Shown in pieces: positions 51,904-59,640 of a stretch of 64,000 nt of DNA (the stretch's first letter is position 1; each line of letters starts with the position of its first letter). The DNA is taken from the NCBI RefSeq assembly GCF_003390865.1, contig NZ_QMEJ01000001.1, forward strand, positions 1,240,001-1,304,000, given 5' to 3'. The position numbers and the translations under genes were made by a program. The notes beneath the pieces are model-generated. The model was not told the origin of the DNA and made no database searches. It saw only the letters and a list, made by a program, of their open reading frames with translations. The stretch comes from Tropicimonas sp. IMCC34011. GTDB taxonomy: Bacteria > Pseudomonadota > Alphaproteobacteria > Rhodobacterales > Rhodobacteraceae.

Positions 51904-52857
51904 ATGCCAAGACCGAGCCGCGACCTCGCCACGATCATCAAGACCGCTCGGATGCGGTATGAACGCAACCTTTCGCAGGGAGACATCGCCAAGGCTCTTG
52001 GGGTCTCGGCCGCGACGGTAAGCAGGTATCTCGCACAGGCTTTCGAGCGCGGTCTGATCGAGGTTCGGGTGGTCGAAAGCGCCTATCGCGAGTTCCGCAT
52101 CGAGCGAGAGCTCCAGCTGGCGTTCGGGCTTGAGGAGGTGATCGTCGTTCAGACACAGGGGACGGAAGAGGCGACGCTGCGCGTTCTCGGCAGCGCGGCG
52201 GGCCGTGCCATCATCGCCCATATCGGCGAGGGAACGATGGTTGGCGTGTCAAACGGCACAAGCATGGCGGCGGTGACGGCCGAAATGCCTAGGATCGACG
52301 CGCCGTCGACGAACGTGGTCACCTTGATCGGAGGGGTCGGCCAGGCGGAGTCCGAGAGCCACACCACCGAGATCTGCCGCCGCTTCGCCCAGGCGACCGG
52401 CGGTCAGTCCCGTATCCTCCCCCTGCCCGCCCTCCTCGAGTCGAAGGAGATGCTGGACGTCCTGCGGGGAACGGAAGCCTATCGCGTACTCAGCGATCTT
52501 TACGCCCGGCTCGACCTGGCAGTCGTCGGGGTCGGTTCGCTCACTCCCGACTCCTCGACGGTGCGCGACGGCCTCTTCACGGCCGATCAGCTTCGTCAGA
52601 TCGCGGAGCACGGTGGCGTGGGCACAATCTGCGCACGGTTCATCGACGGCAGCGGCGCGCCGGTGAAGGCCTTCGAGGACCGCACGATCTCGATCACGTT
52701 CGAGCAGCTCCTCGCAGTTCCGTCCCGCTTCGGCATTGCGGCGGGTCCCGAAAAGGTGGCGGCCATCCGTGCAGCGCTGTCGGGCGGACTGCTCACCTCG
52801 CTGGCAACCGACACGGAAACCGCAGCGCAGCTCCTGCGCCGGGAGGCCGCCGCTTGA
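51904..52857 (+). CDS. SorC/DeoR-like sugar-binding transcriptional regulator
   Basis: 317 residues. An N-terminal helix-turn-helix (NLSQGDIAKALGVSAATVSR, then YLAQAFERGLIEVRV) is followed by the SorC sugar-phosphate-binding domain with VGVSNGTSMAAV, TLIGGVGQAESESHT and VVGVGSLTPDSST. The family senses phosphorylated sugars. It sits between the kinase and the ABC genes, and the paired sites at 48301 and 52858 are its likely targets. Confidence 0.9.
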   Translation: MPRPSRDLATIIKTARMRYERNLSQGDIAKALGVSAATVSRYLAQAFERGLIEVRVVESAYREFRIERELQLAFGLEEVIVVQTQGTEEATLRVLGSAAGRAIIAHIGEGTMVGVSNGTSMAAVTAEMPRIDAPSTNVVTLIGGVGQAESESHTTEICRRFAQATGGQSRILPLPALLESKEMLDVLRGTEAYRVLSDLYARLDLAVVGVGSLTPDSSTVRDGLFTADQLRQIAEHGGVGTICARFIDGSGAPVKAFEDRTISITFEQLLAVPSRFGIAAGPEKVAAIRAALSGGLLTSLATDTETAAQLLRREAAA

Positions 52858-52897
52858 TGTGCAACTTTTTTCACTAAGTAGAAATTGTTGCAAGTAA
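52858..52897. promoter_or_regulatory. Candidate SorC-type operator upstream of the sugar-binding protein
   Basis: TGTGCA (52858-52863) and TTGCAA (52888-52893) stand 30 bases apart, as at 48301; a T-run follows the first half-site in both. The outer arms TGCAAC/GTTGCA also form an inverted repeat here. The site begins directly after the regulator stop and lies 138 bases before the next gene. Confidence 0.5.
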
Positions 52898-53034
52898 TTC
52901 CGGAAAAACTAGGCTCATCTCATCGGAGGTTCCAGGTGCAGATCCGGCCCAATCCAGGCCAGATCCCCGCCGCCGGCTACCGCCGAGGACGTTACAGGGC
53001 GCATTCCGCGGCCTGCATCGAAGGGAGGATCCAA

Positions 53035-54060
53035 ATGACCAATATGAAACTGTTCGGCTGCGCGACCCTTGCGCTCGGGCTGGCACCGTTTGCGGCGTCG
53101 GCTCAGCAGCAAGACGTCTCCGCCTGTCTCATCACCAAGACCGACACAAACCCGTTCTACGTCGCCATGAAGGAAGGTGCGATGCAGAAGGCCGAGGAGC
53201 TGGGCGTGAAGCTCAACACCTATGCCGGCCGCATCGATGGGGACAGTGAAAGCCAGATCGACGCGATCGAGACCTGCATCGCCAACGAGGTCGACGGCAT
53301 CCTGCTCGTGCCCTCGGATACCCGCGGCATCGTTCCGACCGTAAAGCGCGCCCAGGACGCTGGAATCATCGTCATCGCCCTGGATACGCCACTTGATCCA
53401 CTGGACGCCGCCGACGGCACGTTCGCGACCGACAACTTCGCGGCAGGCCAGGCGATCGGCGAGTGGACCGCGGCTCAGCTTGGCGACGATTTGGAGAATG
53501 CACGGATCGGCCTGCTGAACGGTCTCGTCAGCCAGTCGAGCGTCGGTGTCTTGCGCAATCAGGGCTTCCTCGACGGTCTCGGCATCGAGCTCGCCGACCC
53601 CAATGTCTGGGGCGACGAGGAGGATCCCCGGATCTCCGGCAACGACGTCTCGCAAGGCAGCGAGGAAGGCGGACGCACCGGCATGGAGAACCTTCTCCAG
53701 CAGGACCCGAACATCAATGTCGTCTATGCGATCAACGAGCCCGCCGCGGCCGGCGCCTATGAGGCCCTTCGCGCCCTCGGGCGGCAGGACGACGTGATGG
53801 TTGTCGCGGTGGACGGGGGCTGCCCGGGCATCGAGAACGTCAAGGACGGCGTCATCGACGCGACCGCCCAGCAGTACCCGCTGCGCATGGCGTCCGAGGG
53901 CATCCAGGCGATCGCCGATGCGGTCCGTGACGACGCCCCCATCGAGGCGACCGAGGGCAAGGACTTCTACGACACCGGCGTCAACCTCGTGACGGGCAAT
54001 GAGGCCGACGGCGTCGAGTCGATCACGCCCGAGGAAGCCAGCGAGATCTGCTGGGGCTGA
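53035..54060 (+). CDS. Sugar ABC transporter substrate-binding protein (ribose-type)
   Basis: 341 residues from ATG 53035, with AAGGGAGG upstream. The signal peptide is [59 protein letters not shown] and [20 protein letters not shown] are typical of the periplasmic-binding-protein type 1 (RbsB/XylF/FrcB) group. It binds a monosaccharide or polyol; the kinase and transketolase suggest a pentose or pentitol. Confidence 0.9.
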
Positions 54061-54077
54061 CGTCCAGCCAAAAAACT

Positions 54078-54107
54078 GGCTCCGCCCGGACGCACCCGGG
54101 CGGAGCC
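54078..54107 (+). terminator. Perfect 12-bp hairpin between binding protein and permease
   Basis: GGCTCCGCCCGG (54078-54089) and CCGGGCGGAGCC (54096-54107) pair exactly across a 6-base loop, 18 bases after the binding-protein stop. It is the same arrangement as at 42617 and 38671. Confidence 0.6.
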
Positions 54108-54133
54108 GCGTGGCCAGAGTATCGGGGGGAGAG

Positions 54134-55189
54134 ATGATGGATCAAACGCACCGGGAGGAGACGGAGCCGTCAGAGGACTTCGCGCAGTTCGAGCCGCAGC
54201 GCCGCGGGTGGCTCGGGAAGACGCTCTACTTCATCCATACACACCCCGCCATCATCCCGCTCGCGGTGCTGGCAGCGGCGATTGTTGTCTTCGGCCTCGT
54301 TCTTGGGACGCGCTTCTTTTCTCCCTTCTCACTGACACTGGTGCTTCAGCAGGTCATGATCGTCGGCATCGTGGCGATTGCCCAGACACTGGTGATCCTC
54401 ACCGCAGGGATCGACCTGTCGGTGGGCGCGATCATGGTTTGCTCTTCCGTCGTCATGGGACAATGCACCTTCCGCTACGGACTGCCTCCGGAAATCTCGA
54501 TCGTCATCGGCCTGGCCTTCGGCACGCTCTGCGGGCTGGTTTCGGGCATCCTCGTGGCCATCGTTCGCTTGCCGCCATTCATCGTGACACTGGGGATGTG
54601 GCAAATCGTGCTTGCGGCCAACTTCCTCTATTCGCGGAATGAGACGATCCGCTCCCAGGACATCGCCGACCAAGCACCGATCCTGCAATTCTTCGGCCGC
54701 AACATCGAGGTTGGGGGCGCGGTCTTCACCTACGGCGTCATCGCGATGCTGATCCTCGCGGCAGTCGTGCACTACCTTCTGACTTGCACCGCCTGGGGCC
54801 GGCACGTCTACGCGGTAGGTGACGACCCCAAGGCGGCCGAGCTCGCGGGGGTCCGCTCGCGCAATGTCCTTCTCACGGTGTATGCGGGATCCGGGCTGAT
54901 CTGCGGCTTCGCCGGCTGGACGCTCATCGGCCGGCTGGGGTCGGTCTCGCCGACCGCGGGGCAGCTCACCAACATCGAGACGATCACCGCCGTGGTCATC
55001 GGGGGGACCTCGCTCTTCGGAGGGCGCGGCAGCGTTATCGGCAGCCTCTTCGGAGCGCTGATCGTCGGCACCTTTTCCATGGGCCTTCGCATGGCGGGAA
55101 CCGACCCGCAGTGGACCTACCTGCTGATCGGCGTACTCATCATCGTAGCCGTCGCCTTCGATCACTTCGTTCGGAGGGCCGCGGCATGA
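54134..55189 (+). CDS. Sugar ABC transporter permease (RbsC/FrcC type)
   Basis: 351 residues from ATG 54134 (54137 also possible). About nine to ten hydrophobic segments. VILTAGIDLSVGAIMVCSSVV near residue 95 and VIGGTSLFGGRGSVIGSLFGALIVG near residue 295 are the family's two signature blocks. The cytoplasmic loop GRHVYAVGDDPKAAELAGV contacts the ATPase. Its stop overlaps the ATPase gene. Confidence 0.92.
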   Translation: MMDQTHREETEPSEDFAQFEPQRRGWLGKTLYFIHTHPAIIPLAVLAAAIVVFGLVLGTRFFSPFSLTLVLQQVMIVGIVAIAQTLVILTAGIDLSVGAIMVCSSVVMGQCTFRYGLPPEISIVIGLAFGTLCGLVSGILVAIVRLPPFIVTLGMWQIVLAANFLYSRNETIRSQDIADQAPILQFFGRNIEVGGAVFTYGVIAMLILAAVVHYLLTCTAWGRHVYAVGDDPKAAELAGVRSRNVLLTVYAGSGLICGFAGWTLIGRLGSVSPTAGQLTNIETITAVVIGGTSLFGGRGSVIGSLFGALIVGTFSMGLRMAGTDPQWTYLLIGVLIIVAVAFDHFVRRAAA

Positions 55190-55956
55190 CCAGCGATTTC
55201 CTGATGACTGCCGAGGGCATCACCAAGACTTACGGCCGTGTTGTCGCGATGGACGGCGTCGACTTTGACCTGCGCCGGGGCGAGGTTCTCGCCGTCATCG
55301 GCGACAACGGGGCCGGCAAGTCCACCCTGATCAAGGCGCTCTCCGGGGCGATCGTGCCCGACAGCGGCAGGATTACCCTCGACGGCAAGCCGATCCGCCT
55401 GCCGAACACACAAGCTGCGCGGGCGCTGGGGATCGAGACCGTATATCAGGACCTCGCGCTCTCGCCTTCGCTCTCGATCACGGAAAACATCTTCATGGGA
55501 CGCGAGCTGCGTCGGCGGGGGCCCCTCGGCTCCGTTCTGCGAATGCTCGATCAGGAGCGGATGGACGAAGCCGCCCGCCGGGAGCTCCGCGAGCTCGGCC
55601 TGCTGACCATCCAGGACATTCGCCAGCCCGTCGAGACGCTCTCGGGAGGCCAGCGGCAGGGCGTGGCCGTGGCCAGGGCCGCAGCTTTCGGCTCCAGCGT
55701 CATCATCCTGGACGAACCCACCGCGGCGCTCGGGGTGAAGGAATCCCGTCAGGTCCTGCAGATCATAAAGGACATTCGCGATCGGGGGATCTCGATCATC
55801 CTGATCAGCCACTCGATGCCACATGTGTTCGAGGTCGCAGACAGAATTCACGTTCATCGCCTGGGAAGGCGTCTCTGCGTTCTCGACCCGGGGGACTGCA
55901 CACCCTCGGATGCAGTCGCATACATGACGGGCGCGAAGAGCTGGGAAAACACCTGA
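55186..55956 (+). CDS. Sugar ABC transporter ATP-binding protein, single-domain (FrcA type)
   Basis: 256 residues from ATG 55186. Walker A IGDNGAGKSTLIKAL near residue 40, signature LSGGQRQGVAVARAA and Walker B VIILDEPTAALGVKE are intact; the switch His is in LISHSMPHV. One ATPase domain only, as in FrcA/fructose-type importers, unlike the tandem RbsA. It is the last gene of the pentose operon. Confidence 0.9.
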   Translation: MTSDFLMTAEGITKTYGRVVAMDGVDFDLRRGEVLAVIGDNGAGKSTLIKALSGAIVPDSGRITLDGKPIRLPNTQAARALGIETVYQDLALSPSLSITENIFMGRELRRRGPLGSVLRMLDQERMDEAARRELRELGLLTIQDIRQPVETLSGGQRQGVAVARAAAFGSSVIILDEPTAALGVKESRQVLQIIKDIRDRGISIILISHSMPHVFEVADRIHVHRLGRRLCVLDPGDCTPSDAVAYMTGAKSWENT

Positions 55957-56084: not shown

Positions 56085-56972
56085 TCAGTTCGGGGCGGGT
56101 ATCGCACATACCTCACTTTTTCCGCCGCCGCCCTCCTGGCTCTGCAGCCTTGCGATCGCAACGTGCAGCTGATCCCTCAACCCGCGCATTTGCGTGATTT
56201 CGCGGGCGAGTTGTGCTGGATCGGCGGCACGAGCAAGGATGGTCGCGGCCATCCCTCCCGGCGCTCGCCCCGTCAGGCGGCACGACGCCGTGACGACAAG
56301 ATTCCAGGGCCGTGCGATCCGCCCCCCCAAGGCTTCGATCCGCGTAATGATCTTGCGATCCTCGTGGCAGGGAATGGCGCTGAAGCCACCTGCGGACAGG
56401 TAGGTCCCCGTGCGGAAGGCAAGGCTCGCCCCAGGCGTCTGTCCATGTCGCGGAAGGGGATCGTGAGGGCTGGGCGCTTGCAGGCCGTCGAGCTCGGCCT
56501 GCAGGGCGGCAACCGCGTCTTCCAACATGCCATGATGCTGCACCATGTCGGGCAGTCGCGCGAATTCGGCCGGGTCCGGCACGACCCTGCCGCAAACGAC
56601 GTCCGCCACCTGCAGTCCTTTCCGGACACACTGCGCCCAGCCGGGCATTACGGTACAGTCGGCGTCCGTGGTGGCGAGGATCGAAGCCCTCGGGGCCGCT
56701 TTGAGCGCCACCTCCATTCCCAGCCGACGGGCTTCGCCGACGCCGTTCGGAAGGTTTCCGGCATCCAGCACGGCGACCGGCAGGTCGGTGAAGGCATGTG
56801 CGATCCGGACTGTGTCGTCCGTGCAGCCGTTGGCAATGACGATGACGTCCACATTCGTACCGCGACACAGTGCGGACAGGGCGAACGGCAAGCGCGAGGC
56901 TTCGTTCCGCGCCGGTATGGCCACGATCAGGCCGCTGGCGCCCCAACCGGGCGGCAGGTGCAGCGACGTCAT
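56085..56972 (-). CDS. Glycosyltransferase family 2 of a four-gene cluster
   Basis: 295 residues. GLIVAIPARNEASRLPFALS and VDVIVIANGCTDDTVRIAH form the nucleotide-binding fold, and LATTDADCTVMPGWA has the metal-binding DxD motif near residue 103. GASLAFRTGTYLSAGGF and HEDRKIITRI (the ED acceptor-side motif) follow. It is the last gene of a minus-strand run with an acyl-CoA-dehydrogenase-like protein, a PIG-L deacetylase and a methyltransferase, each overlapping the next. The acceptor is unknown. Confidence 0.85.
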   Translation of the reverse strand: MTSLHLPPGWGASGLIVAIPARNEASRLPFALSALCRGTNVDVIVIANGCTDDTVRIAHAFTDLPVAVLDAGNLPNGVGEARRLGMEVALKAAPRASILATTDADCTVMPGWAQCVRKGLQVADVVCGRVVPDPAEFARLPDMVQHHGMLEDAVAALQAELDGLQAPSPHDPLPRHGQTPGASLAFRTGTYLSAGGFSAIPCHEDRKIITRIEALGGRIARPWNLVVTASCRLTGRAPGGMAATILARAADPAQLAREITQMRGLRDQLHVAIARLQSQEGGGGKSEVCAIPAPN

Positions 56973-57559
56973 GGCGCGCGCCTTTCCAGCGGCCCGAAAA
57001 GGTCGATCCGATGCCGAGGATCGCCGGGTTGCGCCGGGACCATGGGGCGGAGCGTCGCGGCGGCGAAGCGCTGCAAGGCGTCACACCCCTCGAGCGGGTT
57101 TCCGGACGGCCCGAGCCACGTGACAGCAAGCACCTCGGCGCAAGGCCAGCGCCGGTCCAGCTGTTCGGCAAGGAGCGTCAGTCCGGCCGGATCGAGGAAG
57201 TAGAGAATTTCCGAAAGCACGATCAGATCAAACGGGCCCGGCGGCAGATCGCAGGGCAGGAACGCCTCGAGGAAGGTGCCTTCCGGCACGGAGACGCGGG
57301 CGGTCTCCAGCGCGCTCTTCACGGCATCGATCCCGGTATAGGCCGCGCTGCGCTGGATCAGCCTGCGGGCCAGTTCCCCGTTGCCGCAACCGATCTCGAG
57401 GGTATGAGCGTAGCGGGCGAGTGGCAACGCGGCGAGCGTCGCCTCGAACCGCCTCTGTTCATATGTCGACGAGCGGAAGTTCCACGGATCGTCCGATTGG
57501 GCATACAGATTTTCGAGATGCGAAAGAGTGACGGCCATGGCGCTATCCGCTTCGCTCAT
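56969..57559 (-). CDS. NodS-like SAM-dependent methyltransferase
   Basis: 196 residues from ATG 57559, which overlaps the PIG-L stop by 17 bases; an ATG at 57538 is also possible. SDDPWNFRSSTYEQRRFEAT is the NodS-family start, HTLEIGCGNGELARRLI the SAM motif I near residue 60, and DLIVLSEILYFLDPAGL motif IV. NodS N-methylates deacetylated aminosugar oligomers. A methyltransferase of this type after a deacetylase points to N-methylation of a freed amine, an inference from the family. Confidence 0.83.
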   Translation of the reverse strand: MSEADSAMAVTLSHLENLYAQSDDPWNFRSSTYEQRRFEATLAALPLARYAHTLEIGCGNGELARRLIQRSAAYTGIDAVKSALETARVSVPEGTFLEAFLPCDLPPGPFDLIVLSEILYFLDPAGLTLLAEQLDRRWPCAEVLAVTWLGPSGNPLEGCDALQRFAAATLRPMVPAQPGDPRHRIDLFGPLERRAP

Positions 57560-58220
57560 CGTAGATTTCGGGACCCTGGGCGAACATCTCGGCAAAGCCG
57601 GCAGGCATCGTGAAACCGTCCGGATCATCGAAGATCACGTGGCCCTGCTGGCTGGCATGGGCTGCGATTGCGCGTGACTTCAAGGCCGCGTCCACTGGGT
57701 AGGTGATGCGCCGGGTGCCAGGAACCCTGGGGGCCTGTCCGCGCCCGAGCCAGCGCGACCAGATCGGATAATACAGCAGATGCAGCTGCGGATGTCGTGC
57801 GCGAAGGATCTCGGCGATGGCGGCCGTCGTGACATGGTCGCAATGGGGATCAAGGGGCGATGGGGCAATGAGAATGCGGCAGCCAAGCCCTTGGATCAGG
57901 GCTTCAAATGCCCGGATGACAATGTCCCGGGGCACGTCGTGCAGGGCCGCATCGGGATAGCGCAGGCAGGTCAGATCCGTCCTCGGATCGCCACCAAGGA
58001 TCGATACGGCGTCGGCCAGCTCGCGGGCGCGGAGTTCGGTGAGATCAAGCGCGCTCCTCGGATGCGAGGCCGCCCCGTCGGTCAGGCAGACCACGTGGGC
58101 GGGTTTTCCGCTCTGCCAGCGATCGGCCAGCAGCGCACCGCATCCCAACACCTCGTCGTCCGCGTGGGGGGCGAGGATCAAGCACGGCGTGTCACCCGAC
58201 AGATCGACCGCGTCATCCAT
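57543..58220 (-). CDS. PIG-L/LmbE-family deacetylase
   Basis: 225 residues from ATG 58220, overlapping the upstream gene's stop by eight bases. PCLILAPHADDEVLGCGALL carries the zinc-binding His-x-Asp-Asp, and PSPLDPHCDHVTTAAI the second His pair. The family removes N-acetyl groups from GlcNAc-containing lipids or thiol precursors. It lies between an acyl-CoA-dehydrogenase-like gene and a NodS-like methyltransferase. Confidence 0.87.
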   Translation of the reverse strand: MDDAVDLSGDTPCLILAPHADDEVLGCGALLADRWQSGKPAHVVCLTDGAASHPRSALDLTELRARELADAVSILGGDPRTDLTCLRYPDAALHDVPRDIVIRAFEALIQGLGCRILIAPSPLDPHCDHVTTAAIAEILRARHPQLHLLYYPIWSRWLGRGQAPRVPGTRRITYPVDAALKSRAIAAHASQQGHVIFDDPDGFTMPAGFAEMFAQGPEIYDERSG

Positions 58221-59238
58221 GCCAGACGTCCGACAGCGGTCCCTTCCGCGCAAGGAGGATCCGTCCGGAACGTTGCTCCATCGCGTCTCGAGCGACCTGA
58301 CGACAATAGGTCGCCAGATCGCGCGCGATCCGCCCCGTGTCCGAACCGCGCGCGAAATGCGCGAGCCCGACGCTCCTTTCCACCGCGGCAATGGTGTCCT
58401 GCGCAAGCTCTTCGGTCAGCAATCGGGCCTGGATCGACAAGGCCACCGCACGCTCCGGGTCATTGCTGCCCGACGGCCCCTGAGCAACTTGCGCAGCTTT
58501 TTCGATCAATCCGAACGCGGCCAGCGACCTCCCCAGAAGTGGGGTCAGCCGGGAGATCTGAGCCTCTGTCTCCAGCCGGTTCAAAGCGGAGAGGTAATCC
58601 CGCGCGGCGCCGATCAGACCGAACGTGCCCCCCAGCTGAAGCGCGGCGATGCGCCAGACACCGCCCACGAAGCTCGGCTCGATGTGATAAGCGCCCGCCT
58701 CGCCGATCCATGTTGGCGCCAGACCTGCTAGATCGACGTCGCCCGACACCGTCGCTCGCATGCCGAGCATGTCCCAGGTTTCGGGATGATGCCGGGCAGG
58801 ATCGGTCACGTCGACCAGTGCCAGGCGGCATGCGCCATCGTGGAGTACCGTCACCAGCGCGTCCGTGACGATCCCGAGGCCCGACGCATATCGCTTGCGT
58901 CCTGACAGAACGGCATCGCTCAGGGTCACCGGAGGATCGCCGTCCGCCCCCCATACACCGAGGATCGCCCCCGCCGGTGCGGAGCCGGGGGCATGACGCT
59001 CGACCAGCTGACGGGCGTTCACATGACCTTCGCACAAACGCGCAAGCGGTAGATTGGCTTCGGCAAGGGCAACGAGGGAACGGGCAAGATCGACGGGGTG
59101 GTCGTCATCCAGCATGCCGCTGTTCAGCACCGCCCGCATCGTGCCGTCCAGCGATGCTCCGGCATCTTCGGCCGGGGCCGCGTCGCGACAAGTCGCCAGG
59201 ATTGATGTTCTGAAATGCAAGGAAGGCCGGTTGCGCAC
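58213..59238 (-). CDS. Acyl-CoA-dehydrogenase-like protein
   Basis: 341 residues from GTG 59238, a little shorter than ordinary acyl-CoA dehydrogenases (about 380). The centre DAVLSGRKRYASGLGIVTDAL, then MLGMRATVSGDVDLAGL, is the beta-domain of the family. The helical C-terminal domain with LGGTFGLIGAARDYLSAL follows, but the usual catalytic Glu context is not recognisable. It may act on a carrier- or CoA-bound intermediate. It is the first gene of the four-gene run. Confidence 0.75.
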   Translation of the reverse strand: MRNRPSLHFRTSILATCRDAAPAEDAGASLDGTMRAVLNSGMLDDDHPVDLARSLVALAEANLPLARLCEGHVNARQLVERHAPGSAPAGAILGVWGADGDPPVTLSDAVLSGRKRYASGLGIVTDALVTVLHDGACRLALVDVTDPARHHPETWDMLGMRATVSGDVDLAGLAPTWIGEAGAYHIEPSFVGGVWRIAALQLGGTFGLIGAARDYLSALNRLETEAQISRLTPLLGRSLAAFGLIEKAAQVAQGPSGSNDPERAVALSIQARLLTEELAQDTIAAVERSVGLAHFARGSDTGRIARDLATYCRQVARDAMEQRSGRILLARKGPLSDVWHG

Positions 59239-59640
59239 CGTCTGATCCAGTCGCGATTAGCGGAGCACTACGACCTGCCCGAAGGTTGCAACGTTCCTTG
59301 GCCTACTTGCGTTCCGAGAGCGAGACGTTCGGCACGCCTCCATCCGAGGGGGGGGCATTAAGAGGCGCAGATCAACCTCAAAGCACATATCTTATCAGCA
59401 GTATAAATGCTTTAGGCTGATGGCGGAGGAGGTGTCCGTCACAGCGCCATGCGACTGACGTATAAAACATTGGTTTTAATACATTTTTAATGGAGAAACG
59501 TCAGCAAAGTGTTATGCAAGTTGTTTTGCAATACACCGTTGCCCTCGGGCGACCGTCGTCGGCATCAAGGGCGGCGAACGTATCGGTCATTCGGCGCCTC
59601 GACCCTCGGGCTGCTGATCGTTTGACGGTGCTGGCGCAGA
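59239..59640. other. Divergent gap upstream of the four-gene cluster
   Basis: About 400 bases without a recognised gene. The part from 59385 to 59515 is A/T-rich and probably holds promoters for one or both sides. No clear -35/-10 pair or operator was settled. Confidence 0.35.

Follow-up and report, generated by a model that had tools for sequence, protein, structure and literature searches.

What is made by four overlapping genes that encode, side by side, a flavoprotein with the fold of acyl-CoA dehydrogenases, a PIG-L zinc amidohydrolase, a NodS-like S-adenosylmethionine-dependent methyltransferase and a GT2 (GT-A) glycosyltransferase? The question is raised by a 64,000-nucleotide stretch of Tropicimonas sp. 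IMCC34011 (contig NZ_QMEJ01000001.1, positions 1,240,001 to 1,304,000; the whole stretch is called the window here), whose genome assembly comprises 3.8 Mb in 12 contigs. On the minus strand, at 59238..56085, the open reading frames (ORFs) called for the flavoprotein (58213..59238; GTG start, 341 amino acids), PIG-L (57543..58220; 225 amino acids), the methyltransferase (56969..57559; 196 amino acids) and GT2 (56085..56972; 295 amino acids) overlap by 8, 17 and 4 nucleotides in gene order, in agreement with the overlaps of 4 to 17 bases given in a preliminary description of this DNA. We report that the four genes form a conserved unit, a probable biosynthetic cassette present across several bacterial phyla. 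As to its product, we tentatively propose, with a confidence just short of evenly balanced, that the cassette is stress-induced and makes a small N-methylated, oxidised amino-sugar glycoside.

A scan of the genomes of 84,980 species for relatives of the flavoprotein confirmed 397 stretches, and the best 80 were fetched. Adding the window and five annotated loci on plasmids gives a set of 86 loci, picked by the flavoprotein and skewed to close relatives, in which all four families lie inside 6 kb at 80 loci; in this count the GT2 profile also picks up other GT2 genes. The order flavoprotein, PIG-L, methyltransferase is near constant, and the GT2 gene stands after the methyltransferase gene, before the flavoprotein gene or on the opposite strand. 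A phylum-wide sample of 398 genomes, host included, is less biased. The flavoprotein is found in 34 of them and the methyltransferase in 45, and the latter is present in 33 of the 34 genomes with the flavoprotein versus 12 of the 364 without it (Fisher test, 5e-37). Scores in these 12 genomes are mostly low and several of the matches are domains of very long ORFs; genome G518 scores high. Around the flavoprotein gene at 32 loci from the 33 non-host flavoprotein genomes (G499 was left out), the methyltransferase is near at 31, PIG-L at 28 and all four at 24. Rare linkage of the four genes, which the preliminary description had set as a refuting result, is not what these counts show.

Cassette genes also occur in Deinococcus, Nostoc, Embleya, Cupriavidus, Pandoraea, Bradyrhizobium, Novosphingobium and Komagataeibacter; the search in Gloeothece turned up no more than a distant relative of the flavoprotein. 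Because the same families stand together again in distant genomes, chance adjacency is rejected. The nearest relative returned, Salipiger sp. IMCC34102 (L025), has a first protein 95% identical to that of the window. Within a same-family sample the flavoprotein is present in 14 of 198 genomes, host included, and the distribution is therefore patchy. Pairwise distance matrices of the four proteins correlate with r of 0.77–0.89 over 98 loci, the largest r in permutations, the control used here, being 0.20; these correlations are partly due to shared species history. PIG-L and the methyltransferase form a single ORF in L091, L093 (Aureimonas) and L166, which suggests that they catalyse consecutive steps. 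In Cupriavidus (L107:4934-5656) a PIG-L gene lies across a catalase gene on the opposite strand, the methyltransferase and GT2 genes remaining with the flavoprotein gene. No paper on this gene set was found in open-access full text, with or without EcfG, subscription journals being outside the scope of that search.

Three of the four proteins are consistent with amino-sugar chemistry. PIG-L matches PF02585 with 84.7 bits (cut-off 28.2), its metal motifs P18-H19-x-D21-D22-E23 and D124-x-H126-x-D128-H129 are invariant in 38 aligned sequences, and its nearest profile matches in the Protein Data Bank (PDB) include diacetylchitobiose deacetylases; a PHROGs search returned only a family without a name. 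PIG-L is thus a probable amino-sugar de-N-acetylase. Since its metal residues are invariant and diacetylchitobiose deacetylases are among its nearest solved relatives, our best guess for the substrate would be N-acetylglucosamine (GlcNAc). The methyltransferase exceeds the threshold of the NodS family PF05401 (46.2 bits, cut-off 24) and falls well below that of the NodS equivalog NF041650 in NCBIfam (45.9 bits, cut-off 300); its best PDB profile matches are 4isc (5e-35) and then NodS itself (3ofj, 7e-21). It is probably an amine N-methyltransferase. In Rhizobium sp. IRBG74, N-methylation by NodS comes after deacetylation, according to PMC5080398. GT2 matches PF00535 (Glycos_transf_2) with 45.1 bits (cut-off 23.3) and keeps D103, D105, E204, D205 and R206 invariant in 36 aligned sequences (alignments A3, A4 and A5 hold 38, 38 and 36 sequences). 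Its model, with a mean pLDDT of 93.9, matches many GT-A enzymes with unlike donors, and no single donor sugar is singled out.

Outside the cassette, locus L178 (4379-7384) encodes a 1001-residue protein in which Pfam recognises GT2, NodS and NodB (polysaccharide deacetylase) domains fused together, without the flavoprotein and with three further GT2 genes beside it; this is possibly a one-protein Nod-like tailoring machine. Other proteins of about 1000 residues with a NodS-like domain are encoded at L179:4528-7707 and L180:4947-8003. Given the PIG-L-methyltransferase fusions on the one hand and the L178 fusion on the other, NodS-type methyltransferases are tied to two unrelated kinds of sugar deacetylase. 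The logic of glycosylation, deacetylation and methylation put forward in the preliminary description fits the linkage and both kinds of fusion.

The same description called the first protein an atypical acyl-CoA dehydrogenase that would adjust an acyl group. The fold is borne out: the AlphaFold model (mean pLDDT 95.6) adopts the complete acyl-CoA dehydrogenase fold and reaches a Z of up to 32.9, the value for human SCAD (324 residues aligned, rmsd 3.0), although Pfam gives no match for the window protein at E 0.001. The enzyme class is not. At the position of the catalytic glutamate of a canonical acyl-CoA dehydrogenase (in YEGT), 126 of 127 loci have glutamine and the remaining one histidine; a single gap lies close by in this alignment, and the window protein has no glutamate at neighbouring positions either. 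R313 is kept in 126 of the 127 loci and E70 and H72 in 124 (with three gaps), and these residues, together with W96, K115 and Q314, make up a signature of the family. Ordinary acyl-CoA dehydrogenase chemistry is rejected on the replacement of the catalytic glutamate by a conserved glutamine.

Among profile matches whose function is known, flavin monooxygenases rank best. In a PDB profile search, places 1–5 are taken by TdsC, DszC and MsuC, and the nitrososynthase DnmZ ranks 11th of 41. DnmZ acts on amino sugars and is a lead for N-oxygenation. Among the 71 members aligned (alignment A2, which holds 70 of the 80 fetched loci and the window), the commonest NCBIfam matches at E 0.01 are SfnB (51) and DszC (40). 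The window protein scores 15.5 bits against the SfnB model (cut-off 430.9), and His92 and Tyr96, which we take to be the catalytic residues of DszC, are not conserved in the PDB profile alignment with it. Because of the change from Glu to Gln, the TdsC, DszC and MsuC ranks and the SfnB and DszC matches, we regard the flavoprotein as a probable flavin monooxygenase or oxidase, and not as an acyl-CoA dehydrogenase. In D. radiodurans (L021:8546-10885) it is fused to an N-terminal region of about 400 residues, which by eye is like a glycosidase barrel and gave no Pfam or PDB sequence match.

A link to stress is suggested first by the promoter region. A putative EcfG-type promoter, an exact match to GGAAC-N17-CGTT, lies at 59290..59315 on the minus strand, with 51 bases between its end and the GTG start. 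The close relative L025 retains the two boxes, and further copies of the cassette have the motif upstream as well. The general stress response promoter is given as GGAAC-N16-CGTT in PMC7083833 and PMC3892343 and as GGAAC-N17-20-GTT in PMC6599016. We scanned for exact GGAAC-N-CGTT with spacers of 8 to 26 (19 spacings) before the first operon gene at the 86 loci; that gene was assigned by a rough rule, and 450 bases were scanned, 200 of them inside the longest ORF. Spacers 16 and 17 gave 13 matches versus 2 over the 17 other spacers (p 1.7e-11, relatedness ignored), and 2 of the 13 (L029, L044) fall in the inner, within-ORF part of the scanned region. With one mismatch allowed, 59 of 163 matches have spacers 16 and 17. 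The host has PhyR, NepR and EcfG genes, including two nepR-ecfG loci (G000:C4:663237-663332 and 927160-927261; L114, L115), one with a divergent phyR. A putative GGAAC-N16/17-CGTT promoter and the PhyR-NepR-EcfG system thus occur in the same genome, as in the EcfG regulon; the motif is conserved across loci and weak as a single site.

The second line of evidence is the neighbourhood. Genes of the EcfG regulon type include catalase and ku-ligD, as stated in PMC7083833. Glycosyltransferases and a probable methyltransferase are named as EcfG-dependent in PMC6599016, and these may or may not be cassette genes; as to the main texts of PMC7083833 and PMC3892343, the cassette is not listed there as a regulon member ('glycosyl', 'acyl-CoA', 'deacetylase' and 'LmbE' are absent). 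We scored catalases, DUF892, trehalose and glucan enzymes, Ku, LigD, DUF421 and MgtC as stress markers inside each fetched stretch. They occur at 71 of 127 loci (58 of 100 in an alphaproteobacterial list, 13 of 27 at other loci) versus 2 of 40 control stretches (1 of 20 and 1 of 20), all from the 398-genome sample, an excess inflated in size because the markers were picked after the neighbourhoods had been read, the control positions moreover being hand-chosen. The count includes near-identical loci, the alphaproteobacterial list includes L062, titled Granulosicoccus, and some of the class assignments are guesses. Catalase is the commonest marker in that list (30 of 100, with Mn-catalase at 9 of 100); the other 27 loci have a GlgX/TreY-type locus in six cases, catalase in three and OtsA in three. 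At L152, L153, L156 and L157 a second PIG-L-type gene directly follows the GT2 or methyltransferase gene, next to a glucan/trehalose-type gene locus. The names GlgX, TreY and TreZ for the L152 genes are our presumption, Pfam giving alpha-amylase, CBM48 and GH77. From promoters and neighbours together, the cassette is probably stress-linked. Nothing that we found supports the signalling role suggested in the preliminary description; both the promoter motif and the neighbouring genes speak for stress protection.

The pathway that we propose would begin with general stress switching on the cassette from the putative EcfG-type promoter. GT2 would then move an N-acetylated amino sugar, guessed to be GlcNAc, onto a cytosolic acceptor, and the PIG-L zinc hydrolase would take off the acetyl group. 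The freed amine would be N-methylated by the NodS-like methyltransferase, and the flavoprotein, which is without the dehydrogenase base, would oxidise the product, most likely as a monooxygenase, by N-oxygenation or hydroxylation. Gene overlaps, conservation of the unit, intact deacetylase metal motifs, the loss of the dehydrogenase glutamate, EcfG-like promoters at many copies and stress-gene neighbourhoods are computed from the sequences; we infer the substrates, the order of the steps, the type of oxidation and the protective role of the product.

Several observations weigh against this proposal. In the host genome as a whole the exact motif is hardly in excess (48 sites versus 32 to 53 for control patterns), and the window site is therefore not significant alone; the window holds three exact motifs where one is expected. 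At the host's own nepR-ecfG loci there is no exact EcfG site, only sites with one mismatch, and the window copy has no stress-marker gene beside it. The monooxygenase profile matches fall mostly on the first half of the flavoprotein and dehydrogenase matches on the second, and comparison of folds, by Foldseek and VIA ranks, gives no split between the two classes. PIG-L was not found near the flavoprotein gene at 4 of the 32 inspected loci of the phylum-wide sample, and L022 and L049 show the flavoprotein alone; these two and L098, L106, L151, L159, L169 and L170, which have the flavoprotein alone or lack PIG-L, stayed in the counts. The cassette of D. radiodurans is not intact: a helicase gene sets the methyltransferase gene apart, and no GT2 was found in the stretch. 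Finally, additional glycosyltransferase genes (a membrane-type GT2, so judged by eye, a GT2 and a GT4) lie directly upstream at roughly one locus in three (32, 33 and 35 of 86), and the product there may therefore be a larger glycan.

These upstream genes, like the position of the L178 fusion gene among other GT2 genes, speak for the tailoring of a surface glycan under stress, in which GT2 would add one residue to an exopolysaccharide, a glycolipid or a lipopolysaccharide sugar, the residue then being de-N-acetylated, N-methylated and oxidised. We regard this as somewhat unlikely. No further glycosyltransferase gene is adjacent in the window, Sulfitobacter sp. D7, Roseivivax, Deinococcus sp. 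NW-56 or Komagataeibacter (the plasmid gene tables being incomplete), and a reading of annotated neighbourhoods, which was no systematic search, showed no gene named as a polymerase or flippase; MFS transporter genes are near in L020 and L109. A low-molecular-weight antioxidant or cofactor, built on bacillithiol- or mycothiol-like logic with an oxidised N-methyl-amine substituting for cysteine, would suit the pairing of a glycosyltransferase with PIG-L and the catalase or Mn-catalase genes near many copies. It appears quite improbable: PIG-L reaches 40.0 bits against the BshB1 cut-off of 182.5, the four genes include no thiol-forming enzyme, and a redox role of the product is a proposal. The preliminary description had also offered a thiol pathway; one of a known kind is rejected on the same low BshB score and on the absence of a cysteine ligase from the cassette.

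That the first protein truly dehydrogenates acyl-CoA or an acyl carrier, and that the product is an acylated signalling glycolipid or thiol, in line with the preliminary description, is likewise quite improbable in our judgement. Besides the fold, it can draw on ColB1, the top Foldseek match of the flavoprotein model, which dehydrogenates a carrier-bound cysteine, and on the 18 of 71 relatives that match the acyl-CoA dehydrogenase model PF00441 at E 0.01. Against these stand the lost glutamate, the lack of any gene for an acyltransferase, a carrier protein or a cysteine ligase in the cassette, and the isovaleryl-type position and FAD-binding stretches, which, placed where we presume them to be, are not conserved in the aligned members. 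On present evidence, then, the preliminary description was right about the unit and its sugar logic and wrong about the acyl step and signalling.

In the window, the cassette has on one side an operon for a sugar-type ABC transporter, with the end of the ATPase gene at 55956, and on the other a divergent 2-hydroxyacid dehydrogenase gene. At 51904-55956, genes for a sugar-binding transcriptional regulator and for the periplasmic binding protein, permease and ATPase of the transporter converge on the cassette.

Beyond the stress-induced glycoside pathway itself, it is possible, if rather less than evenly balanced, that the N-methylated, flavoenzyme-oxidised amino-sugar glycoside is a new stress metabolite acting as a general protectant, and the flavoprotein its key enzyme, from a new subfamily of oxygenases of acyl-CoA dehydrogenase fold that act on amino sugars and bear EGH and RQ signatures; the cassette would then be deployed in Pseudomonadota, Deinococcota, Cyanobacteriota and Actinomycetota with catalase, trehalose and DNA-repair genes. 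If so, radiation- and desiccation-tolerant Deinococcus, Methylobacterium, sphingomonads and marine Roseobacters would share one stress compound encoded by the cassette, and hundreds of annotated acyl-CoA dehydrogenases would become a distinct flavoenzyme family. Its four small genes can be removed or transferred as one piece.

In the bacillithiol and mycothiol pathways, a glycosyltransferase and a PIG-L deacetylase (BshA/BshB and MshA/MshB) make a small amino-sugar glycoside. The cassette shares this pair of activities, but has a GT2 rather than a GT4 enzyme and adds the methyltransferase and the flavoprotein. The flavoprotein resembles the group D flavin monooxygenases (DszC/TdsC, SfnB, MsuC) and DnmZ in having an acyl-CoA dehydrogenase fold without the dehydrogenase glutamate, and differs from the group D enzymes in lying far below the SfnB cut-off and in carrying its own signature residues. 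With the Nod-factor enzymes NodC-NodB-NodS the cassette has in common a GT2 enzyme, a sugar de-N-acetylase and a NodS-type N-methyltransferase. However, PIG-L stands in the place of NodB, and a flavoprotein is added. NodA, NodB and NodC are not among the Pfam and NCBIfam matches of the four cassette proteins, to which this search was confined, nor is a NodC model among the NCBIfam matches of GT2. The setting, moreover, looks like general stress and not symbiosis; a role specific to symbiosis is rejected, since the cassette is found in Deinococcus and Sulfitobacter as well as on a Bradyrhizobium plasmid. The closest regulatory parallel is the alphaproteobacterial general stress response regulon of PhyR-NepR-EcfG, which the cassette resembles both in the EcfG-type motif upstream of many of its copies and in the regulon-type neighbours, catalase and ku-ligD, that lie near them.

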